Assembly: GCF_000236705.1 (NCBI RefSeq)
Contig: NC_016599.1
Location: forward strand, 434,001 to 498,000
DNA: 64,000 nucleotides
Reading direction: 5' to 3'
Origin: Owenweeksia hongkongensis DSM 17368
GTDB lineage: Bacteria > Bacteroidota > Bacteroidia > Flavobacteriales > Schleiferiaceae
Below, in pieces: positions 39,351-53,763 of the stretch. The position numbers and the translations under genes are program-made. The stretch's first letter is position 1. Every line of letters starts with the position of its first letter. The notes below the pieces were generated by a model that had not been told where the DNA came from, ran no database searches, and was given only the letters and a program-made list of their open reading frames with translations.

Positions 39351-42300
39351 TTACCAGACAAATTCCGGTTCTTCTTCTTCTTTCTCTTGGCTGGTGAGTT
39401 GAGCTTCTTTGAGCGATTCCTCTACTTCAGAATTATGCTCCATCGGTGATTCATCTAATTCAATCACCAACTCTTTATCCCAACCAAACTTGGCCAACAC
39501 TCTATCCATTAGGTAATATATTACCGGAACTACAATAAGAGTGAGGAACATGGAGCTGGTAAGTCCACCGATAAGTACCCAAGCTAGTCCGTTTTTCCAC
39601 TCTGCCCCAGGGCCATCAGCCAGGGCAATTGGTAACATTCCTATGGCCATGGCCAATGTGGTCATAAGGATAGGACGGATACGTGTTTGCGTAGCTTTCA
39701 TCAAAGCTTGTTTTACTTCAAGCCCAGCAGCTTTTAGCTGATTAGTAAAGTCGACTACCAGAATCGCATTCTTGGCCACAAGACCGATGAGCATAATCAT
39801 ACCAAGTATGGAGAAAATACTCAATGAACTATTGGTAAGAGCCAGTGCAAGTAGTGCTCCTATCACCGCTAGGGGAAGGGAGAACATTACCACAAAAGGA
39901 TAAGCATAACTATCATAAAGTGCCACCATAATGAGGTATACCAAGGCAAGTGAAGCGAAGAGTGCAAAAAACAAGCTACCGAAAGCTTCGCCTTGTTGTT
40001 CCAGCTGTCCTCCCATTTGGTAAGATACACCTGCTGGTAAATCCATTCCAGCCATCATTTGATCAACTTCGGTACCAACCGTACCCACCGGGCGACCAAT
40101 AACCTGAGCCTTTACGGTAACGGTACTTGATTTATCCAAACGTTCCAATTTTGACGGACCGGCACCATCAACCACTTTGGCAAATTGCCCAAGTCTAATT
40201 ACCTCTCCACGGTTATTTATAAAAGATAGGTTGCGAATATCATTGGCACTGGCACGATCAAATTCATCTAATTGAATAGTAATGTCATATTCATTTTCGC
40301 CATCGCGGAATTTGGTGTCTTGTGTTCCACTAAAGGCGGTTTGCATACTTCCTCCAACAACTTCCAGAGATAATCCAAGTTCGGCCATCTTATCGCGATC
40401 AACTTCTACTTTTACTTCCGGATTACCCTCATCTACACTAGTTTCAATTTGGGCTGTACCCTCAATAGCTCCAATGTCGGCCATTACTTTTTTGGAGTAA
40501 GTCAGCAAAGTGTCAAGCTCTGATCCGCTAAGAATTACCTGAATAGGGGCGTCATCAGCGGTACCCATTATACTTACCGGAATAGATTTTATTTTTCCTC
40601 CAGGAATGGTTTCTTCAAGGGCAATTTTTATCTCGCGAGCTAATACTTCCGAACTAACGTTTCTCTTATCTTTTTCTACCAACTTTACACTTACCTGGGC
40701 TTTATAAGGCTCGCTGGTGCTGGCGGACATGGCTCCATTACCTTGACCAACGGTGGTGTTGATAGATTCTACTTCAGGATATTGACTGATGAAACGCTCA
40801 ATTTTACGGGTTGCAAAATTGGTGTTCTCCAGAGTAGATTTTTTTGGCATTTCCAGCTCTATGATAAATTCACCACGATCACCGGAGGCGACAAATTCGC
40901 TACCGATAAAACCGAATCCTACCAAAGCAAATGAAGAGAAGAAAAGAACAAGCGTGCTCACCAAAACTATAGCCTTATGGTTAAAAGACCATTCCAAGGC
41001 ATTGGACATTCCCTTTTCAAACGAGTTTACAATTCCTTCAAAACCGTTTACCACTTTTCCGATAAGGCTGGTTTCTTTGATGTGCTCTACTTTGGCAAAA
41101 CGTGAAGCCAACAATGGAATTACTGTAAATGCAACCAGTAAACTCAAGGCTGTACTTACGGCCACAGTTCCTGAAAACTGAAGAAGCAAATCTCCCACAG
41201 TACCACCGGTAAGGGCAATAGGCAAGAACACCGCGATAATTACGAGAGTAATAGAAACTACGGTTGTTCCAATTTCACGAACTCCATCATAAGCAGCTTG
41301 AAATTTGGATTTACCCATTTCCAGGTGACGGTATATATTTTCTATCACCACAATGGCATCATCAACCAAAATACCTACTACAAGGGATAGTGCGAGCAGC
41401 GACATAAGGTTTAGCGAAAAGCCAAATAAATACATGGCAGTAAGCGTAGCGATGATAGACATCGGTACCGAAACCATTACAATAATTGCCGTACGGAAAC
41501 TGTGCAAAAACAGCAGCATGATAAGGGCTACCAGCACAATGGCTATCATAAGGTCATGCATTACACCATTGGCAGCTTCTAGCGTAAACTCAGAACTATC
41601 AGAAGCAACTTTAAAGTCAATTCCATTTTTAGCATAAAGCTCTGAAAGACTCGCCATTTCCTTGTAAGCCAATTCACTAATCTCTACTGCATTGGCATCA
41701 CTTTGCTTTTGGATGGTTAGTCCGATAGAATTTTCACCATCAATGCGGCTATAAATCTCAGCGTCTTTCTTTGTGTCCTCTACATCAGCCACATCGGATA
41801 AATGAACTACAGATCCGTCCTGATCTCGAACAATCACCAAGTCCTTCATTTGATCTACCGAAGAGTATTTTCCGCTAAGGCGAATGGTAGTTTGCTTACC
41901 ACCGTCTTTTATTTTTCCTGTAGGAAAATCAAGGTTTGCATTATTTATAGCTTGGCTCACCTGAAGAATACTTAGATTATAACCACTAAGTTTTTCTTCG
42001 TTTACGTTTACCCGAACTTCGCGTTCCTGACCACCCAAAATGTTTACCTGAGCTACACCGGGAAGCTTTGAAAGGGCAGGGGCGATCTTATTGTCAACCA
42101 AGTCATAAAGCTCAGTAGGCGATAAATTTCCCGATACACCGAGTCGCATAATAGGAAGGTCGCTGAAGTCAAATTTACCAAGTGAAGGTGTTTCTACATC
42201 TTCGGGTAAATCATTTATCATGGAGTTGATTTTTCGCTGTGCTTCCTGTAAAGAAACATCAACGTCCATCGACTGCTCTAGTTCAATTACTACAGAAGAA

Positions 42301-42563
42301 ACACTTTCCATAGAGGTAGATGTAATCTTCTTAATTCCCTCCATCGAAGACACCGCGTCTTCAATATTTTTGGTCACAGAATTTTCTACCTCATAAGGTG
42401 ATGCACCAGGGTAAATGGTAGTAACAGATACCACCGGACGAGTGATTTTTGGTATCAGTTCGTAGTTAAGCTTTGTGTAGCTAAAAGCTCCCAAGGCTAG
42501 TAGTATGGTGAAAATCACCACTACCATGGTAGGTCGCTTTATGGATGTTTTTACAATTTGCAT
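39351..42563 (-). CDS. RND efflux pump inner-membrane permease (AcrB/HAE1 type)
   Basis: A 1070-residue proton-driven exporter working with the adaptor and TolC-like genes just upstream. The N-terminal helix and periplasmic porter domains are followed by TM helices from about residue 335. The proton-relay Asp pair is in LVVGILVDDAIVVIENIYRHLE, and GMIMLIGLVAKNAILVVDF is in the second half. The C-terminus is extended, acidic and Glu-rich. Substrates are not predictable. It is separated from the adaptor by 28 bases. Confidence 0.95.
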   Translation of the reverse strand: MQIVKTSIKRPTMVVVIFTILLALGAFSYTKLNYELIPKITRPVVSVTTIYPGASPYEVENSVTKNIEDAVSSMEGIKKITSTSMESVSSVVIELEQSMDVDVSLQEAQRKINSMINDLPEDVETPSLGKFDFSDLPIMRLGVSGNLSPTELYDLVDNKIAPALSKLPGVAQVNILGGQEREVRVNVNEEKLSGYNLSILQVSQAINNANLDFPTGKIKDGGKQTTIRLSGKYSSVDQMKDLVIVRDQDGSVVHLSDVADVEDTKKDAEIYSRIDGENSIGLTIQKQSDANAVEISELAYKEMASLSELYAKNGIDFKVASDSSEFTLEAANGVMHDLMIAIVLVALIMLLFLHSFRTAIIVMVSVPMSIIATLTAMYLFGFSLNLMSLLALSLVVGILVDDAIVVIENIYRHLEMGKSKFQAAYDGVREIGTTVVSITLVIIAVFLPIALTGGTVGDLLLQFSGTVAVSTALSLLVAFTVIPLLASRFAKVEHIKETSLIGKVVNGFEGIVNSFEKGMSNALEWSFNHKAIVLVSTLVLFFSSFALVGFGFIGSEFVASGDRGEFIIELEMPKKSTLENTNFATRKIERFISQYPEVESINTTVGQGNGAMSASTSEPYKAQVSVKLVEKDKRNVSSEVLAREIKIALEETIPGGKIKSIPVSIMGTADDAPIQVILSGSELDTLLTYSKKVMADIGAIEGTAQIETSVDEGNPEVKVEVDRDKMAELGLSLEVVGGSMQTAFSGTQDTKFRDGENEYDITIQLDEFDRASANDIRNLSFINNRGEVIRLGQFAKVVDGAGPSKLERLDKSSTVTVKAQVIGRPVGTVGTEVDQMMAGMDLPAGVSYQMGGQLEQQGEAFGSLFFALFASLALVYLIMVALYDSYAYPFVVMFSLPLAVIGALLALALTNSSLSIFSILGMIMLIGLVAKNAILVVDFTNQLKAAGLEVKQALMKATQTRIRPILMTTLAMAIGMLPIALADGPGAEWKNGLAWVLIGGLTSSMFLTLIVVPVIYYLMDRVLAKFGWDKELVIELDESPMEHNSEVEESLKEAQLTSQEKEEEEPEFVW

Positions 42564-42591: not shown

Positions 42592-43680
42592 TTATTTACT
42601 TGCAGAAAGATTGGTGTCATCATTAGCATTCAAGGTTTTTACCTTGGTGCCATCTTTCAGGTTTATTTGGCCGTTTACTACCACTTCATCACCTTCTTTT
42701 AATCCAGCTACTACCTGGATTTCATTGTCCAATATGTCGCCAATAGCGATGTCAATTAGCTTTGCTTTACCATCCTGAACTATAAAAACTTGCGGTTCTT
42801 TTATACTTCCTGCCAAAGCCTCACGACTGATATACAAACCTTCACCTGCATTAGTGAATTCAAAATGTGCTTTGCCAAACATCCCGGCTTTAAGAGGATT
42901 TTCATCACTGTTTTTCATCAATAGCTCAATATCATATTTAAGGCTATTGTCAGCTTTAGCAGCTATAGCAGTTACCTTGGCGGTAAAAGCTTTGGATGGA
43001 TAAATATCACTGGTCACCTTCACTTCATCTCCTTCATGAATGCTTAAAACATGGCTTCCAGTAACCTTCACATTTAGCTTTAGCTGGCTTACATCTACTA
43101 TGTCGTACAGTTTTCCTTTGCGGGAAATATTAGAACCTTCCTGGATATAATCTTCGTTTATGGTTCCGGTAGCCGTTGCTCTGATGTAAGTATCCTCAAG
43201 ACGTTTCTTGGCACTTTTGTACTGCGCTTCCGCATTGGCTGTGGCCACATTTATATCCTCTAGCTGGCGCTCAGTCACAGCATCCTTTTCGGCTAATTTT
43301 GTAAAACGATTAAAGTCTGTTTTCAACTTTTCGTAATTAGCTTTTGTGGCGGTAACTTCTGCTTGCAAAAGTTCGTTTTCCACCTCTGCCAAAAGCTCAC
43401 CTTTTTTTACAAAGTCACCTTTTTTGTGATAGATCTTTAAAACCAAACCTTCTGTCTCGGCAAGCATCGTAAGGTCTGTGTAAGCTTCAAAAGTTCCAAT
43501 ATTAGTTACATGGCTTTCGAGCTTTTTGCTGGTTACTGTTCCAAGTTCTACAGGAATGTAATCACTCACCTTTTCGGCAAGCTTGGCGGTTTCCGCCATC
43601 TGTTTTTTATTGTCTGATAGTTTCCAGGCCACTAATCCTATAGAAGCGATTACTACAACGGCTATTATTACTTTTTTCAT
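42592..43680 (-). CDS. RND efflux periplasmic adaptor (MFP)
   Basis: A 362-residue membrane-fusion protein. An N-terminal anchor (MKKVIIAVVVIASIGLVAWKL) without a lipobox Cys, a lipoyl half-motif (GLVLKIYHKKGDFVKKGELLAEVEN), a coiled-coil hairpin (about 110-165), the second lipoyl half, a beta-barrel (KLNVKVTGSHVLSIHEGDEVKV) and a membrane-proximal domain (AGLKEGDEVVVNGQINLKDG) are all present. It bridges the permease and the outer-membrane channel. It lies in the middle of the efflux operon. Confidence 0.95.
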   Translation of the reverse strand: MKKVIIAVVVIASIGLVAWKLSDNKKQMAETAKLAEKVSDYIPVELGTVTSKKLESHVTNIGTFEAYTDLTMLAETEGLVLKIYHKKGDFVKKGELLAEVENELLQAEVTATKANYEKLKTDFNRFTKLAEKDAVTERQLEDINVATANAEAQYKSAKKRLEDTYIRATATGTINEDYIQEGSNISRKGKLYDIVDVSQLKLNVKVTGSHVLSIHEGDEVKVTSDIYPSKAFTAKVTAIAAKADNSLKYDIELLMKNSDENPLKAGMFGKAHFEFTNAGEGLYISREALAGSIKEPQVFIVQDGKAKLIDIAIGDILDNEIQVVAGLKEGDEVVVNGQINLKDGTKVKTLNANDDTNLSASK

Positions 43681-43725: not shown

Positions 43726-45069
43726 TTATGAGTTTGATAATTGGCGAAGCTGACCTTGAGCTCTAAGTAAATCCAGCTCGGCTTTTTTGAATTTTAATAT
43801 CTCACGGATATAGTTGATTTGGGATTCTCTCCATGAAGTTTCGGCATCCAGCAAATCCGTTAATGAACCTACTTGCTCAGCGTATAACTCTTGGGTTTGA
43901 TCATATACTTCCTGAGCCAAATCTTTGTTTTCGCGTTGTGCCTCTACAGATTTCATGCTGTTTAGCAATTGCTCACGGGCATTTTGATATTCCATCGATT
44001 TTCCTCGCTCTGCATATAGCAAGTCCAGTTGTGTTTTTTCAATATCAATTTTGGCTTGTTGTACCTGGTGATGACGTTGTAATCCACTGAAAAGTGGAAC
44101 ATTGAGTTGCACACCAATTACGGTTTGTTGAAACCAGGACTGGCTGTCATCAAAAAAGTTAAATTCATTTCGCTGTGCATTCCAACTTTGTTGACCAAAT
44201 GCTGCCAAAGAAGGGTAGTTGCCCGCCTGAAGGCTTTTCTTGTTCAGCACATTCAATTCATATTGTTTGTCCAAAAGCTGAATCTCAATGGGAATTTCCT
44301 TTTCGTATTGAAGTGTAGAAAGATTGATTTCTTCAATGTCTTCACCTTTGATAAGCGAAATGTTTTGCTCCATAGACATTCCCATCAGTAATTTCAGGTA
44401 GTTTTTGGATTGCTCTTCAGCGGTTTTTAAAGTTTGAAGGTTCGTCTCAATGTTAATCCGGTTTACCTTCAAACGGTTATAATCCGTTTTGGTGATCAGG
44501 TCATTTTCCTGTTGCACTTTCATTATTTTTTCTACCTCATTCAGGCGGTCTACGTTTGCCTGTAGCGCATTTATAGAAGCTTGTATTTCAAGCACCTGAT
44601 AATAAGCTGTAGAAACCTGGTAGATTACATCTTCTTCTGTTTGGATTTTTAGCAACTCATATAATTGCTCAGAAGCATTGGCGGCTTGTAAACCTGTGAA
44701 AAATTGCTGGTTATAAAGTAATTGAGACGCCTCAATGGTTCCGGTTGCATTGAACTTTGTACCAAATTGCACCGGAATTTGTGTTCCTGGCTGCCCTACA
44801 ATTTCACCTGGTAGGAGTTGGGTTGGGAGGTTGGGGAAGTTTTGAAATTGACCATTGGCATTTACCTGTGGCAATCCGGTTCCTCTAACTTCAGACACCA
44901 AATGGTCTGCTTGTTTTTTATCCAAAATTGATTTTTGGATATCTATGCTGTTTTTTAATGCGTAGTCTAAAGACTGCTTTAGCGTAAAGCTGTTGTCAGT
45001 CTGACCCTTCACAGCAAATGGGATCGAGACTATTAGTGCCATTAGGGCACTGATGACGGTTTTTCTCAT
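43726..45069 (-). CDS. TolC-family outer-membrane efflux protein
   Basis: A 447-residue outer-membrane channel protein. ATG at 45069 (MRKTVISALMALIVSIPFAVKG, signal peptide) is preferred over a start six codons earlier. Two OEP repeats are evident: FTLKQSLDYALKNSIDIQKS near the N-terminus, and the QTVIGVQLNVPLFSGLQRHHQVQQAKIDIEKTQ block with the long helical AEQVGSLTDLLDAETSWRESQINY segment in the second half. It is the first gene of the RND operon, with a GbsR/MarR-type dyad 35-60 bases upstream. Confidence 0.94.
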   Translation of the reverse strand: MRKTVISALMALIVSIPFAVKGQTDNSFTLKQSLDYALKNSIDIQKSILDKKQADHLVSEVRGTGLPQVNANGQFQNFPNLPTQLLPGEIVGQPGTQIPVQFGTKFNATGTIEASQLLYNQQFFTGLQAANASEQLYELLKIQTEEDVIYQVSTAYYQVLEIQASINALQANVDRLNEVEKIMKVQQENDLITKTDYNRLKVNRINIETNLQTLKTAEEQSKNYLKLLMGMSMEQNISLIKGEDIEEINLSTLQYEKEIPIEIQLLDKQYELNVLNKKSLQAGNYPSLAAFGQQSWNAQRNEFNFFDDSQSWFQQTVIGVQLNVPLFSGLQRHHQVQQAKIDIEKTQLDLLYAERGKSMEYQNAREQLLNSMKSVEAQRENKDLAQEVYDQTQELYAEQVGSLTDLLDAETSWRESQINYIREILKFKKAELDLLRAQGQLRQLSNS

Positions 45070-45105: not shown

Positions 45106-45129
45106 TTAGTTCGGTTTTTAAAGAACTAA
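45106..45129. promoter_or_regulatory. efflux operon operator (TTAGTTC dyad)
   Basis: TTAGTTC-N10-GAACTAA inverted repeat in the gap between the GbsR/MarR gene and tolC. It has the same half-sites and the same 10-base spacing as the dyad over the regulator's own promoter at 45650-45679. Confidence 0.7.
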
Positions 45130-45142
45130 TTAGGTAAAAAAA

Positions 45143-45616
45143 TTAGGAGCGCGATTGCTCCCAAGCTTTATAAAGATTAGGTAACTCCTTATTCATATAC
45201 CGGATAAAGTCCACGATATCGGCTAGGTTTTTATTGAATTCAACTGTATTCCCAGGGCGTTGCTTAAGTATTTCGTCAAAGATATCAGCAATGTGATTCA
45301 TGGTCGAAAACTTGCTTTTAATATCCTCTTTCCAGTTAGTGATTTTGCTCCTGAAGTAGCGTTTGCGGTCACCAGTTTTTGTTATGTACTCTAGCCTCTG
45401 TGTAGTAAGGAGCAAGTTTATAGCATTGCTAGTAGCACTTTTGCTTAGCTGCAATGTTTCTCTTATTTGATCAAAGGTCAATTCCGTCTTTGGTGATACA
45501 AGCAGGAGGGCTATCACTCTTGAAACAGCTGGCTGAAGTCCTTCGTGTTCATGCATCACACCAAGGCGCTCTATGAGCTCTTTCTGTTGATCTGTTAATT
45601 GAATTGCGTTTTCCAT
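45143..45616 (-). CDS. GbsR/MarR-family transcriptional regulator
   Basis: A 157-residue winged-helix regulator starting MENAIQLTDQQKELIERLG; a TTG seven codons upstream is possible but lies only 2 bases past the -7 element, so the ATG is preferred. The HTH is LTFDQIRETLQLSKSATSNAINLLLTTQRLEYITKTGDRKRYFRSK (recognition helix around SATSNAINLL), as in GbsR-type MarR proteins. The position just upstream of the RND operon, and shared dyads, make it the probable local repressor of efflux. Confidence 0.88.
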   Translation of the reverse strand: MENAIQLTDQQKELIERLGVMHEHEGLQPAVSRVIALLLVSPKTELTFDQIRETLQLSKSATSNAINLLLTTQRLEYITKTGDRKRYFRSKITNWKEDIKSKFSTMNHIADIFDEILKQRPGNTVEFNKNLADIVDFIRYMNKELPNLYKAWEQSRS

Positions 45617-45634
45617 TACTGTTAAATTATGGAG

Positions 45635-45664
45635 CAAAGATATAAATACTTTTTAGTTCTGCAA
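45635..45664 (-). promoter_or_regulatory. GbsR/MarR gene promoter
   Basis: On the minus strand TTG (45662-45664), 19 bases, then TATCTTTG (45635-45642), matching the consensus. The -33 element sits in the centre of the dyad at 45650-45679, so binding there would block the promoter. Confidence 0.68.
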
Positions 45665-45679
45665 TTACAGAACTAAAAA
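45650..45679. promoter_or_regulatory. GbsR/MarR operator over its own promoter
   Basis: Perfect 12-bp arms (TTTTTAGTTCTG and CAGAACTAAAAA) with a 6-base spacer. The inner TTAGTTC and GAACTAA are 10 bases apart, exactly as at 45106-45129. Confidence 0.75.
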
Positions 45680-48054: not shown

Positions 48055-51000
48055 TTAATCCTTGATGACCTTATAAGTAAACCTTTCTTCTTTGGTCTGC
48101 ACAATAACCATATACATTCCGGGGTGCACGTTAGAGAAGTCTACTTTGTAATTTCCTAAATCAGTCTTTGTCAGTATATAATTCTCATTCGTACGCTTTC
48201 CATTGAGGTCATAAATGAATATTTCTTCGCCAGCAAACTGGTTGAATGTATTTATAACTAAATGATTTTTTACTGGGTTGGGATATATCGATGGCTCTGT
48301 TGCATATTCCTCGGCTAACTCAATTGGTGAGCTACTTTTCTTAGCAACTATACATTTTTGCGAATTATTATTAGCATACACCAAACTATAGCTTAGGCTA
48401 TTGTTTTGATTGGAAAATACAAACCATGCAAAACCAGATCCGTCAAAGTAGATATCCTTACTGCCATTTCCCGCATGGAATATTTCAGTTGGATCATCAC
48501 TATTTAGCCCCCCAGAAAGTATCACATTATTTTTTCCTTTTGGAATATAAATTGGAGTGCTATTTCTATTGCTATAGCTAATGTGGGCCACATAATCAAA
48601 ACCTGAAGAGTGGTTACTAATTTGATCAACGCACTGTAAGGAGAGTAGGATTTTTTGGGTTCCAATACCTTTTGGGTTCACGTATAATTGTCCGGTGGTG
48701 TAATAGATCAAATAGTTTGATGCACGTTCTATTACTAAACCAGATGGATTAATATCATACACACCAGCTGCGCCAGTATACATTGAACCTAATGTGAGGC
48801 TTGGTGCTGATAGTATTGAATCTATACTATAATGATCACCTAAAATATCATAGTTAAAAGGAGGCGCTGGAGAACCTGCTTCAGCGAATGTATCTCTAGC
48901 TGTAACATAAATCTCAGCCGGGTTTACGGTCAAAATTCCATCAATGAGGATAATGTCGTAATTACCTGAACTTCCTCCCAGCAGGTAAATTGGATAAACT
49001 CCAATACTGCTGGAGTCAACGGCTTGGCATGATACGATAGGAAGTGTTAAGTCACCAGGAGCGTCATTGTATTCAAATCCATTATATGATAGGTTGAATG
49101 CAGGATTAGGTTTTCCATATATTTTGGAAGTATCTTCTGCAGTGACGATAAGGTTTGCTTTATTAACTACCAATTTTCCTAACACATAATGCACAACATA
49201 ATTTGTAGGTTGCACCAGCATTAAACTATCTGGAACAATGGTGTATGTTCCCGCATCTACTTGCGTTGTGCTTATTGAATTTTCACTTGAATCTAAAATC
49301 TTGTAGGTGGGAATATTCTTAATCACGTTAGAATCTGCATCACCATACTGATAACCGCTGGTAGAGTGAGAAAAGGAGATACTGTCCCCATATGTCCTTG
49401 TTAGAGAATCAACTTTAAAGGTTAGCGTAGCAGGAGTGATAGTGAGGTTCCCTAATTCATAGGTGATATTATAATTTGCATTAAATAGGGGGGCAGGAAC
49501 AATAATATGAACTCCTACATCTGTTCCAGTTATTAAATTAATCGGTAAGAAACGAAAGACACTATCAGTTCCTAAAGTATCCAGATCATTTTCATCAAAA
49601 ACTAAAGCCACCTCACCACTATCGGAAATGGTATCTAATCCATTGATTAAAGGGATTCCATTCACTAATGGTTGGGCATTAACCAAAGGATAACCGTTGA
49701 CAACGGCTCTTCCATATGCAACGGCTCTAGCATTTACCACAGCCCTCCCATAAGCAGATAGTGTAGATCCTCTCTGGCGTGGAGCGGTTAGCAGGGTTGC
49801 ATTATTTGGTGAAGTTTGATAGTCAAAAATTGATTGGGCTGCAATCTCGACAAAATAAGTAGTATCATACTGAATGGCGCTGTTTACCACGGCTCTTCCA
49901 TAAGCCACAGCTCTTGAGTTTTCCACAGATCTTCTGCTAGCGGCATAAGATAATCCACGTAGATCGGCATTTACTACTGCACGTCCGTATGCACTTCTTC
50001 TTACTACAGCCACAGCATTCGTTAAGTTGGATTGGTGATTATACTCAATGGAATCGCTAAATAAAGCTAGTTCAGAAGGGGCAACAAGTGAATCTTCAAA
50101 TGAATATTCAAAATGGAAATCACCTAAGGGATAACCATATTCTACCGTTGTATCTTTTGCAGTAATGGTTAAAGGCATTGGGTTTATGGTTAGCGATCCA
50201 TCTACAAACTCATAATTGAACAACTCAGAAAGTCCAAGTTCATAAGGGATGTTCAAGTCAAGAGAGTCCATTTCTGCACGGATCAAATAAATTCCAACAT
50301 TGCTAGTGGAGGTGGCTGTTGTAAATACATCAATACTGTCAAGACCTAAATCATAAAGACTATATCCAGCAGAATCAAAAGGAATGCTGTCCACCAATAC
50401 CTCAAAGGTTAAAAGAGGAACTGCTTCGCTATACTTTTTGGTTTTGTTGTTTACAACAATTTGCACGTTTTTTTTGGTTGGAGAAAATAGGAGGAGGGTA
50501 TCTGAAAATCCACCATCCAGAAGAGAGGAAGAGATGGGATTGTTGTAAACTCGAACTGGTGGGTTTCCATTAAATGGCGGAATATTCGCTGCAATTTCTG
50601 AAGAATTAATATAGTTTGATGAGACGGTGTCATCACGTAATAATACTATACTTGAAGGTGTAAAATAATCTCCGATGATGTTTACACTTATAGTATCCGT
50701 TCCCGGAATTTGGGTAGTATCGAGAAATGAAACCTGTGATACGGATGGCTTGGGGTTAGCAAAAGAAAGCATGGCTTGATCGGCTTGAATAAATCCTGAG
50801 CCGCTTTCATTATCAAAACCAGAAGCACCCATATCAATAGCAGTATTGCTAAGCAAGTTTTTAATTTCTAATGGTGTGCTATTATGGTTTTCAAATTTTG
50901 CTTGAGCTGATTTTAGCAAAGCGGCCACCCCAGCGGCATGTGGTGCGGCTGCGGAGGTACCAAAAAAGTTTGGAAACGCATCCGATTCTATATTTGGTCC

Positions 51001-53763
51001 ACCAATATTTACAGTGGTATTCACGCCATTGGGGGCGCAAAACTCAGGTTTGTTACGAGCTGTTCCATTTACAGGGGTGCCACCTCTTGACGAAAATGAA
51101 GCAACAGAAGGTGTGTTTCCAAATTCTGGAGTATTGCTATAAAGCACAGCTCCCACGGCCATTGCACCTTCTGCATTAGGGTGGCCAACTATGGTGCTGG
51201 TCCCGGATTGATATTCATTAATAATCATATTGCCCTGAAAGACGATGTACTTAAAAAATACATTTTGACTTCCAGATTCGCGAACGATCAATATGTTGGA
51301 CTGTGTGTGTTGAGTCACCGTAAAAGGCATTACCTCCAAGGGGTCGTTGTTGAGGTTATTTCGGTTAAAACCGAAAAGGGTGTTCCCTAAATCATCAGTC
51401 AGATAAATGTCCAAGTCATTATTAGTACCGGTACTGGTTTGCCCAATACTATAAACTGAATCTTGCCATTGCAAAACGATGGTATAATTGCCTGGCTCTA
51501 GAGTTACACTTTGAAAAATATCGCCTCCACCAAAGTCATGAGCATCACCAAGAATGTTATTAGGAGTAGGAGCTGGGTTGAATGCGGAGGCATAGGATTT
51601 ATCACCAAAATTACCAGCTGATGAAAAGTAGCTAACTCCCGAATCTGCCACGGCATTTACAGTTTGTGAAATCACACCATCGGTCAAAAAGGGCTCTGTA
51701 ATAAAGGTGATGTCGTCTACTATTATGTCACAGCTATCTGCTGCAAGGTCTAGAATCCCTTTAGCCATATTTCCAGCGCTCAAAAAACCTGTAGTAAATG
51801 CAAGCTCAGCCTTAGGTGCCACATCATGAATTATTTGCAGCATGGCTCGGCCTTCGTCAGATTGAACTCCATAAGGGAAATCCTGAAGAACCTTTATTGG
51901 AGTTGGGTTTTTAGTATTTCCATTACCGGGTAGATCTTCGTTCAATACGTCTGTCGGAGCTTTATTTCCTGGTTGAGTATTGTAGCTATTTGACAAAACT
52001 CCAACTTTCACACCTTCACCGGCAACATCATACCCTAATCTTGCAAAAGGAGCTCTTAGAGCTTTATCGCCTTGACTTAGTGCAATTCCACTATTTACAA
52101 CTGGGGGAAAGAGAGGACGAACGTAATTGATAAGAAGGGGGAGACTATCTAGTTTTTGTAAATTTTGGATAGGAAACAGACCTGTTATAGTCAATGAAGA
52201 AGGGCCATTATCAATCACATTTGTAAGACCATAGCTTGGTGATTGCAACAAACTAAGAAGCGTTTGATATTGTCCTTGTACTGCAATAACCTCTATGTAA
52301 ACCCCGCCATTATCTAACCTGAAAATGTTACCAGCGGTGTCATTATAATTTGCATTGTCAATCAATGTTCCCAATTCAGAGCCAGTAGGATTGGGCGATT
52401 TACCTGCGGTGGGTGGCGGATAATAGGGTATAATGCAGCTTGATTCGGGCACATTCACATTTACAGATTGGGAGCAGCCACTGGCCAGGGAAACAGTCAA
52501 CGTGTATAGTCCACCTTTATTTACCGTAGGGCTAAGCGTATTGGCTCCGCTTGCAATATTTCCATTTGCCGTGTGCCAATTGTAAGTGGCATTTGTAGCG
52601 CTGGTATTTGCTAATAGTACAACATTGCGTTGGCTGCAGGTTACTGAGTCAGGGGTGCTAATATTGATAACAAATGAAGAATCACAAAAGGCGAAAGGTA
52701 CATGTTGAAAAGTTACACCATTATTTAGGGTTACAAACTTGGGGCTGAAAAGTGCACCGGTTACAAATGCTTGGCTTGTGTTTTTACTAATAGTAATACC
52801 TCCGAAAGGAGCCCAAACCGTTCCTTTCCATTCTGAATATTTATTTGTACCAATCCACCCCGAATTTTGATACCAAGCTGTTTTTCTATCGCTTGAGGAA
52901 GAGCCTGTTCCGTGCGTTTCAGCGTAAATCCTTGAAGCATCGCCTCCATTGATAATGTTTACCTCAAGTTTCCCAAGGTCTACATCTCCATGAATTAGAA
53001 GTCGGATGTTACCTGTGGGGGCGTTTTGAAAATCGAAGGTGAAAACGTTTTTGTACCCAGTATTTTTTATTGCGCTAAACACATAATCACCAATTCCAGA
53101 AAACACAAGCTCATTTACACCACTTAAGGCAATACTGTCATAAGAACCGGGAGTAATATTAGCATCACTGTAAATAGAAGTTGATCCCAAGGGAGGGAAG
53201 CTGTTTACGAAAGGATATTTGGGTAGCGGTGCGAATACAGGTTGAGACAACACTTCACCACCCTGTGGAGTTGGGCCATCGTACTGCGTTCCTGCTGGAT
53301 GGGTTACTTGCCCAATTACAAAGCCGGGTTGAATAATGATATCACCATTTATGAAAAGATTACCAGCCAAATTTGCACGGTGACCAACTGTTAAAGTAGA
53401 GTTTGAGCTTGACCTGGCATTTGCGCTCCAAATACTTCCAGACACTTGGGCATCTGTAAAAATGTGAGTTTCATTTCTTGCGTAGATTCCTCCTTGAAGC
53501 GTAAATGACCATAAGGTGGATACGTTAGTATAGCTTCCTACATTTCCCCCCAATATTACATTGGTTGCTCCTAAAGAAACTCCACAATCATTGGGTGCTA
53601 CGCAATTAGAATCCCCTCCCAAAATTGCATAATCCATAATGGAAGATGATTGTGAGGTGCTGAATAGGGGGATTAAGAAAATAATAAGTCCGAGGAATGT
53701 TTTGTTTCCAAAGGAAATACTCCAATTGCTGCCAAGGCTGGCGCATTTTGTAAAGGTTTGCAT
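48055..53763 (-). CDS. giant multidomain subtilase-like T9SS surface protein
   Basis: 1902 residues. Signal segment about 15-39; beta-rich adhesin-like domain (40-360); PKD-like domain (365-445); S8 subtilase-like domain (about 570-975); IPT/TIG-like domain (about 1005-1095); five MBG domains (about 1098-1700); T9SS type A sorting domain (about 1825-1902). Ser937 of GTSAAAPH and Asn718 of SAGN fit a subtilase, but the Asp and His positions read Ser591-Asn592 and Glu637. MBG domain 2 carries four AYGRAVVN octapeptides at residues 1258, 1287, 1337 and 1349, then YPLVNA-QPLVNG-IPLING. Probably a surface adhesin or altered peptidase. Confidence 0.88.
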   Translation of the reverse strand: MQTFTKCASLGSNWSISFGNKTFLGLIIFLIPLFSTSQSSSIMDYAILGGDSNCVAPNDCGVSLGATNVILGGNVGSYTNVSTLWSFTLQGGIYARNETHIFTDAQVSGSIWSANARSSSNSTLTVGHRANLAGNLFINGDIIIQPGFVIGQVTHPAGTQYDGPTPQGGEVLSQPVFAPLPKYPFVNSFPPLGSTSIYSDANITPGSYDSIALSGVNELVFSGIGDYVFSAIKNTGYKNVFTFDFQNAPTGNIRLLIHGDVDLGKLEVNIINGGDASRIYAETHGTGSSSSDRKTAWYQNSGWIGTNKYSEWKGTVWAPFGGITISKNTSQAFVTGALFSPKFVTLNNGVTFQHVPFAFCDSSFVINISTPDSVTCSQRNVVLLANTSATNATYNWHTANGNIASGANTLSPTVNKGGLYTLTVSLASGCSQSVNVNVPESSCIIPYYPPPTAGKSPNPTGSELGTLIDNANYNDTAGNIFRLDNGGVYIEVIAVQGQYQTLLSLLQSPSYGLTNVIDNGPSSLTITGLFPIQNLQKLDSLPLLINYVRPLFPPVVNSGIALSQGDKALRAPFARLGYDVAGEGVKVGVLSNSYNTQPGNKAPTDVLNEDLPGNGNTKNPTPIKVLQDFPYGVQSDEGRAMLQIIHDVAPKAELAFTTGFLSAGNMAKGILDLAADSCDIIVDDITFITEPFLTDGVISQTVNAVADSGVSYFSSAGNFGDKSYASAFNPAPTPNNILGDAHDFGGGDIFQSVTLEPGNYTIVLQWQDSVYSIGQTSTGTNNDLDIYLTDDLGNTLFGFNRNNLNNDPLEVMPFTVTQHTQSNILIVRESGSQNVFFKYIVFQGNMIINEYQSGTSTIVGHPNAEGAMAVGAVLYSNTPEFGNTPSVASFSSRGGTPVNGTARNKPEFCAPNGVNTTVNIGGPNIESDAFPNFFGTSAAAPHAAGVAALLKSAQAKFENHNSTPLEIKNLLSNTAIDMGASGFDNESGSGFIQADQAMLSFANPKPSVSQVSFLDTTQIPGTDTISVNIIGDYFTPSSIVLLRDDTVSSNYINSSEIAANIPPFNGNPPVRVYNNPISSSLLDGGFSDTLLLFSPTKKNVQIVVNNKTKKYSEAVPLLTFEVLVDSIPFDSAGYSLYDLGLDSIDVFTTATSTSNVGIYLIRAEMDSLDLNIPYELGLSELFNYEFVDGSLTINPMPLTITAKDTTVEYGYPLGDFHFEYSFEDSLVAPSELALFSDSIEYNHQSNLTNAVAVVRRSAYGRAVVNADLRGLSYAASRRSVENSRAVAYGRAVVNSAIQYDTTYFVEIAAQSIFDYQTSPNNATLLTAPRQRGSTLSAYGRAVVNARAVAYGRAVVNGYPLVNAQPLVNGIPLINGLDTISDSGEVALVFDENDLDTLGTDSVFRFLPINLITGTDVGVHIIVPAPLFNANYNITYELGNLTITPATLTFKVDSLTRTYGDSISFSHSTSGYQYGDADSNVIKNIPTYKILDSSENSISTTQVDAGTYTIVPDSLMLVQPTNYVVHYVLGKLVVNKANLIVTAEDTSKIYGKPNPAFNLSYNGFEYNDAPGDLTLPIVSCQAVDSSSIGVYPIYLLGGSSGNYDIILIDGILTVNPAEIYVTARDTFAEAGSPAPPFNYDILGDHYSIDSILSAPSLTLGSMYTGAAGVYDINPSGLVIERASNYLIYYTTGQLYVNPKGIGTQKILLSLQCVDQISNHSSGFDYVAHISYSNRNSTPIYIPKGKNNVILSGGLNSDDPTEIFHAGNGSKDIYFDGSGFAWFVFSNQNNSLSYSLVYANNNSQKCIVAKKSSSPIELAEEYATEPSIYPNPVKNHLVINTFNQFAGEEIFIYDLNGKRTNENYILTKTDLGNYKVDFSNVHPGMYMVIVQTKEERFTYKVIKD
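49647..49992 (-). repeat. coding repeat block AYGRAVVN / xPLVNG
   Basis: Four octapeptide copies lie at 49969-49992, 49882-49905, 49732-49755 and 49696-49719 (minus strand), followed by three hexapeptides of form xPLxN(A/G). The four copies differ at several synonymous positions, so the repeat is kept at protein level and is not a recent DNA duplication. Confidence 0.85.

Follow-up and report, generated by a model that had tools for sequence, protein, structure and literature searches.

Two copies of one inverted repeat, TTAGTTC-N10-GAACTAA, flank a GbsR/MarR-type regulator gene in Owenweeksia hongkongensis DSM 17368, one upstream of the gene and the other in the gap between the regulator and tolC, which raises the question of what the same dyad does at each of the two places. 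The stretch of DNA that was analyzed, referred to here as the window, spans 64,000 nucleotides (NC_016599.1, positions 434,001 to 498,000). An initial annotation of the window proposed that the regulator represses both itself and a tolC-adaptor-permease operon. The features concerned are, in window coordinates:

39351..42563, minus strand: RND permease of the AcrB type (PF00873, 1.3e-273)
42592..43680, minus strand: RND periplasmic adaptor (TIGR01730, 209.8 bits, cut-off 94.9)
43726..45069, minus strand: TolC-type outer-membrane efflux protein (OEP; PF02321, 1.3e-44), most likely starting at the ATG at 45069
45106..45129, no strand: O2, the second dyad TTAGTTC-N10-GAACTAA, in the regulator-tolC gap
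45136..45144, minus strand: A-tract AATTTTTTT, directly after the regulator stop codon, with which it has two bases in common
45143..45164, minus strand: hairpin resembling a terminator, spanning the final codons and the stop of the regulator, with T7 after it
45143..45616, minus strand: GbsR/MarR-type regulator (MarR_2, AlphaFold, Foldseek), most likely starting at the ATG at 45616, which gives 157 aa
45635..45642, minus strand: -7 box TATCTTTG of a sigma-A-type promoter, read from the sequence
45653..45676, no strand: O1, the dyad TTAGTTC-N10-GAACTAA upstream of the regulator
45662..45664, minus strand: -33 element TTG, within the O1 spacer

The elements described in the initial annotation are all found in the sequence. 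Both dyads have a spacer of 10 and match all 14 half-site bases, the perfect arms at O1 extend over 12 bp each (45650-45679), and the promoter at 45635-45664 has its -33 TTG beneath the dyad center, 19 nt from the -7 box. The centers of O1 and O2 lie 547 bp apart. A further point, absent from that annotation, is that the regulator, tolC, adaptor and permease genes all run in one direction on the minus strand. Since the regulator and tolC are co-directional, O2 falls inside what is likely a single operon of regulator and pump genes.

The regulator matches Pfam MarR_2 at 28.6 bits (cut-off 27), and its AlphaFold model (pLDDT 94.4, 61 sequences) contains the helices and wing strands of a winged helix-turn-helix protein. 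Foldseek searches with the monomer model returned Mj223 (1ku9, TMq 0.70) and 4nb5 (0.72-0.73) as the best matches, at a sequence identity of about 20%, ahead of the other listed MarR-type proteins, all listed matches apart from these reaching at most 0.61; the model thus points to a GbsR/Mj223-like fold with a C-terminal helical dimerization part. Assignment to the CudC choline regulators (NCBIfam NF047500) was rejected, the score being 26.4 bits against an equivalog cut-off of 218. Residues Y74, Y84, F85 and W92 are conserved at 94-100%; an aromatic cage for choline or glycine betaine is a property of the osmostress GbsR-type members only. The operator of Mj223 is given as unknown in PMC7396694.

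The informativeness of the dyad depends on how closely it is matched. With three mismatches allowed, the window holds 5 sites against 5.08 expected, showing no enrichment, and at up to two mismatches a reversed-pattern control is commoner in the genome than the dyad itself (36 vs 19), so that only near-perfect sites are meaningful. Exact copies occur in the 4,000,057-base genome at just two sites, O1 and O2. One mismatch admits a single extra site (C1:3589565) with no such regulator within 1.5 kb, and a genome-wide regulon was rejected on this ground. The only sites with at most one mismatch in three related genomes (G001, G003 and G015) are the pair at the regulator, and elsewhere in the examined loci only 5 sites with spacer 10 were found in 923,972 bp. 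A chance origin of the pair was rejected, because exact sites are confined to the regulator locus in their own genome and are rare elsewhere. In a draw of 395 genomes of the phylum, the exact pattern was found in 39 and a regulator homolog (E up to 1e-12) in 22; comparing the two scans by hand, an exact dyad directly adjoins the homolog in 14 of those 22. The number of sites is not in excess (42 dyad sites vs 42 reversed-pattern sites, by hand count), and the phylum-wide signal is the location of the sites, not their number.

Conservation was assessed in the regions around the regulator in 81 loci, consisting of the window and the best 80 of 322 relatives from named genome contigs, a sample biased to close relatives. 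O1 was called with at most one mismatch to TTRGTTC-N10-GAACYAA, and O2 with at most two mismatches when it lay 12-22 nt beyond the stop codon of the regulator. By these rules 72 of the 81 loci keep O1, 61 keep O2 (39 of these at 14-15 nt past the stop) and 58 keep both, spaced 527-577 bp apart. Most of the regulators in these loci share no more than 44-62% identity with that of the window. A spacer of 10 is seen at 72 loci for O1 and 50 for O2, and spacers of 5-9 and 11-15 showed no enrichment (no locus at O1, at most 4 at O2). The contig titles name Flavobacteriales, Cytophagales, Crocinitomicaceae, Chitinophagaceae and others, with Pontibacter frequent. Because many O2 loci belong to Pontibacter or its near relatives, the counts were repeated on clusters at 70% identity (80 regulators, fragment L119 left out, yielding 50 clusters): with up to three mismatches at O2, O1 is found in 44 clusters, O2 in 37 and both in 34, and the sequence of the spacer varies while its 10-bp length and the position of the site stay. 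The change of O1 in two relatives is symmetric (TTGGTTC/GAACCAA). A family-level check of 88 genomes identified 8 clear orthologs including that of the window (53-100% identity), and in all 8 the two dyads, with 0-2 mismatches, occupy the positions seen in the window. The pair is a genuine, conserved feature.

Variants of the dyad were also observed. One Flavobacterium carries a third copy 79 bp past O2 (L040:2055-2078; the same organism as L123). Several sister regulators (L154-L158, L187, L188) share the outer half-site TTAGTTC and differ in the inner bases, which read GGT...ACC in one group and AAT...ATT in another; their recognition helices differ as well.

At O1, the arrangement is that of a promoter-blocking operator. 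The exact -7 sequence TAnnTTTG follows O1 in 69 of 72 loci, the box having been defined with the consensus and the -12 to -5 position reported in PMC9723704. With transcription predicted to start near 45630, the O1 center would lie about 35 bp before the start. Occlusion of the promoter from O1 is well supported by this position, and O1 is very probably the operator of the GbsR-type regulator.

At O2, about 510 bp past the predicted start, no recognizable promoter follows the dyad. Among the 63 O2 sites with up to three mismatches, none is followed by an exact TAnnTTTG, and TAnnTTGY, GG-N10-GC and CGT boxes are not in excess; a second ordinary sigma-A promoter and a promoter with any of these other boxes were rejected accordingly. 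The proposed repression of regulator and pump operon therefore holds in part: the conservation of both dyads, their rarity elsewhere and the GbsR/Mj223-like fold support it, and auto-repression by coverage of the -33 element fits, but the tolC dyad does not accompany a promoter of its own that can be recognized (0/63). Transcription of the pump genes instead seems to start at the promoter of the regulator and to run on across O2. Six co-directional loci (L052, L071, L075, L093, L105, L110) leave little or no gap after the regulator: the following gene has its earliest start codon at -68 to +11 nt of the regulator stop, so that it overlaps or abuts it. These loci have O1 and lack O2, indicating that the pump can be expressed from the O1 promoter.

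The interpretation we favor, with a probability of roughly 0.6, is a twin-operator, auto-regulated efflux operon in which O1 occludes the promoter and O2 gates read-through; we infer for it binding by the regulator, one transcript, roadblock action and induction. A GbsR-type dimer would bind the same dyad at both places. On O1 it would cover the -33 element and block RNA polymerase at the single sigma-A promoter for regulator and pump, and on O2, just past the regulator stop, it would obstruct polymerase that has escaped O1. Leaky transcription would then produce the regulator and not the pump, and an inducer, perhaps a pump substrate, would free both sites, opening promoter and gate together. 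We have high confidence that the regulator of O1 also binds O2, while a role of O2 mainly as an elongation gate, instead of at a promoter, is only somewhat favored. We consider O2 to be probably an intra-operon RNA-polymerase roadblock because no recognizable promoter follows it, because abutting operons indicate that the O1 promoter is able to drive the pump, and because a GbsR-type precedent exists. PMC7396694 describes B. subtilis OpcR as blocking at -35 and GbsR as a roadblock bound past the transcription start; like the protein proposed here, they are GbsR-type repressors acting on A/T-rich inverted repeats, at gbsAB, opuB and opuC. In that system each mode has its own regulator, both acting on osmoprotectant genes, and the half-sites lie 4 bp apart for GbsR, whereas here both modes are proposed for one protein, the half-sites lie 10 bp apart, and the same dyad stands on either side of the regulator gene, the inner copy being accompanied by an A-tract. 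If true, one operon and one protein would join two repression modes of separate B. subtilis proteins. Repressors that stop elongating polymerase are treated as an accepted class in PMC10310618.

Consistent with the statement in the initial annotation that no Bacteroidota GbsR-type operator of this form was known, none was found in the open-licence literature, where a search by the two half-sites also gave no relevant title among the matches listed. Among MarR-family proteins, MexR and MepR likewise repress neighboring efflux genes or operons by way of a dyad operator, but we know of none among such efflux repressors with a twin site inside the operon that is accompanied by an A-tract.

In the loci compared, that A-tract goes together with O2. 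An AnTm tract of at least 7 bases without a TpA step precedes 59 of the 63 O2 sites, whereas only 14 of the 860 other ORF ends in these loci have one; it ends 18.5-19.5 bp before the O2 center in 56 of 63 (18.5 bp for AATTTTTTT in the window). Beyond the center, T-W-C at +1.5 to +3.5 is part of the strand-specific O2 signature, with C at +3.5 in 57/63 sites at O2 vs 27/72 at O1 (by clusters, 31/37 vs 19/44, p 0.0002). Where O2 is absent (20 of 81 loci by the two-mismatch rule, 18 by the three-mismatch rule), a run of at least four T is present in only 5 of the 20; in three of these (L050, L117, L126) O2 was missed by the rule, owing to a spacer of 11 or to three mismatches, and two (L077, L080) carry T7 without a dyad. 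L050, with a spacer of 11, also counts among the 18. A TAAAC element 35-39 nt past O2 was weak and, by eye, largely carried by Pontibacter, and was dropped.

The same arrangement recurs around the other GbsR-type gene of this genome (C1:1575461-1575958, outside the window), which is 24% identical to the regulator and precedes two small membrane proteins of 119 and 132 aa with no Pfam match. Its dyads, TTTCA-N8-TGAAA at C1:1575415-1575432 and 1575987-1576004 (L020/L190), have the same O1/O2 layout. This subfamily was found in 104 of 326 phylum genomes and was sampled at 80 loci (10 chosen, plus L190-L259, 70 of 105 matches), in which O1 is present in 51 (with 40 nt of flank) and O2 in 36. The A-tract accompanies O2 at 30 of the 36 sites, ending at -18.5/-19.5 in 28; C at +3.5 is found in 30/36 at O2 vs 6/51 at O1, and TAnnTTTG in 0/36 at O2 and 35/51 at O1. 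A branch of 27 loci (L233-L259) runs counter to the general rule, with O1 in one locus and O2 in none; we take this branch, tentatively, to be sphingobacterial or chitinophagal, and many of its loci have what is presumably a YraN-like reading frame directly 3' of the regulator. Judging by these comparisons, the O1/O2 geometry is kept while dyad and recognition helix change between subfamilies, posing the question of how the bound protein, the preceding DNA and the stop codon act on Bacteroidota RNA polymerase.

The A-tract and the C at +3.5 are strand-specific extras, more than a plain roadblock needs, and count against one; they could mark an unrecognized promoter type or a pause/release element. 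The main rival is accordingly an unrecognized promoter, with O2 as the operator of a second pump promoter, non-canonical or dependent on an alternative sigma factor, in which the A-tract is UP-like or part of a -33 and the dyad covers the -7 or the -33. A signature fixed to the dyad center and common to two subfamilies with different dyads speaks for it, as does the hairpin before O2 in the window (-11.8 kcal/mol, z -3.67, then T7; also in the closest relative), which is evidence for termination before O2, though not conserved. There, as in three paralog loci with a terminator-like hairpin (L196, L202, L219), read-through could be inefficient and a start site could follow the hairpin. Against this promoter stand the lack of TAnnTTTG at O2 in both subfamilies (0/63 and 0/36), with no excess of TAnnTTGY, GG-N10-GC or CGT, the loci with abutting genes, which do without O2, and several paralog loci in which the target ATG lies only 2-20 nt past the dyad; at 2-3 nt, as in L192, L193 and L012, there is no room for a promoter after O2. 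On balance we judge it unlikely.

The pause/release alternative would make O2 a composite, strand-specific checkpoint, in which an A-tract without TpA and T-W-C cause polymerase to pause or release only when the regulator occupies the dyad. This would amount to a repressor-dependent elongation gate (a protein-gated attenuator), present across Bacteroidota in two or more GbsR subfamilies whose dyads are unrelated, and its position at the regulator stop codon would keep a trailing ribosome from helping the polymerase through. We regard it as a tentative, rather doubtful proposal.

Two identical sites about 550 bp apart also recall the lac operon, whose second operator likewise lies hundreds of bp into the transcribed region, and O2 might be an auxiliary operator that loops to O1 and raises the local repressor concentration. 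The 527-577 bp spacing in 58 loci is compatible with looping, but helical phasing was rejected (Rayleigh test, p 0.36 for a period of 10.5 bp and 0.14-0.69 over the range 10.0-11.25), O2 lies in an intergenic gap and not, as in lac, in coding sequence, there is no evidence of tetramers, and GbsR is modeled as a homo-dimer in PMC6207618, all of which makes looping improbable. Least probable of all is that O2 acts as RNA, as a hairpin or an intrinsic terminator/attenuator in the regulator-tolC gap, in spite of the window hairpin and T7, a dyad that folds as RNA at -5 kcal/mol, and a ratio of G-U-compatible to A-C half-site pairs of 17 to 5 at O2 (14 to 15 at O1): hairpins of at least -4 kcal/mol in strength end at the tract in only 4/62 loci (shuffles 13/186) and 3/35 paralog loci (shuffles 2/105), which led us to reject a conserved hairpin plus U-run, the tract varies from A2T7 to A7T3, often A6-7T3-4, and so behaves as a DNA feature and not a U-run, and the same dyad at O1 precedes the -7 box and would stay untranscribed.

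Returning to the twin-operator reading, the genes it would control vary between loci. The tolC-adaptor-permease operon named as the target in the initial annotation is the one present here, but the scope is wider, as the paralog with its other dyad also indicates. Downstream genes are mostly RND systems, whose RND proteins are 27% to 76% identical to that of the window (one fragment excluded); in Winogradskyella (L116, 6601-7716) the gene that follows both dyads encodes not a pump but an MscS mechanosensitive channel, and in L122 O1 (one mismatch) is followed by an MMPL protein. In two Cesiribacter genomes (L078/L129, L103/L130), the pair flanks a second regulator copy heading the pump operon, the first-found copy sitting behind the pump. 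Judging from the varied downstream genes, regulator and dyads seem to stay together while their cargo changes. The dyad offers a concrete predicted operator for a large, uncharacterized Bacteroidota group of efflux-pump regulators, with which pump regulons could be predicted and inducers screened.

A different layout was observed in two contigs titled Chitinophagaceae and Cytophagaceae, where a single dyad, located in the intergenic gap, is common to two divergent regulator paralogs (L066:5847-5870, L067:5070-5093), with no O2. Elsewhere in the window, a minus-strand gene (48055-53763) encodes a 1,902-aa protein, subtilase-like by eye, whose middle part contains several near-copies of the peptide AYGRAVVN.
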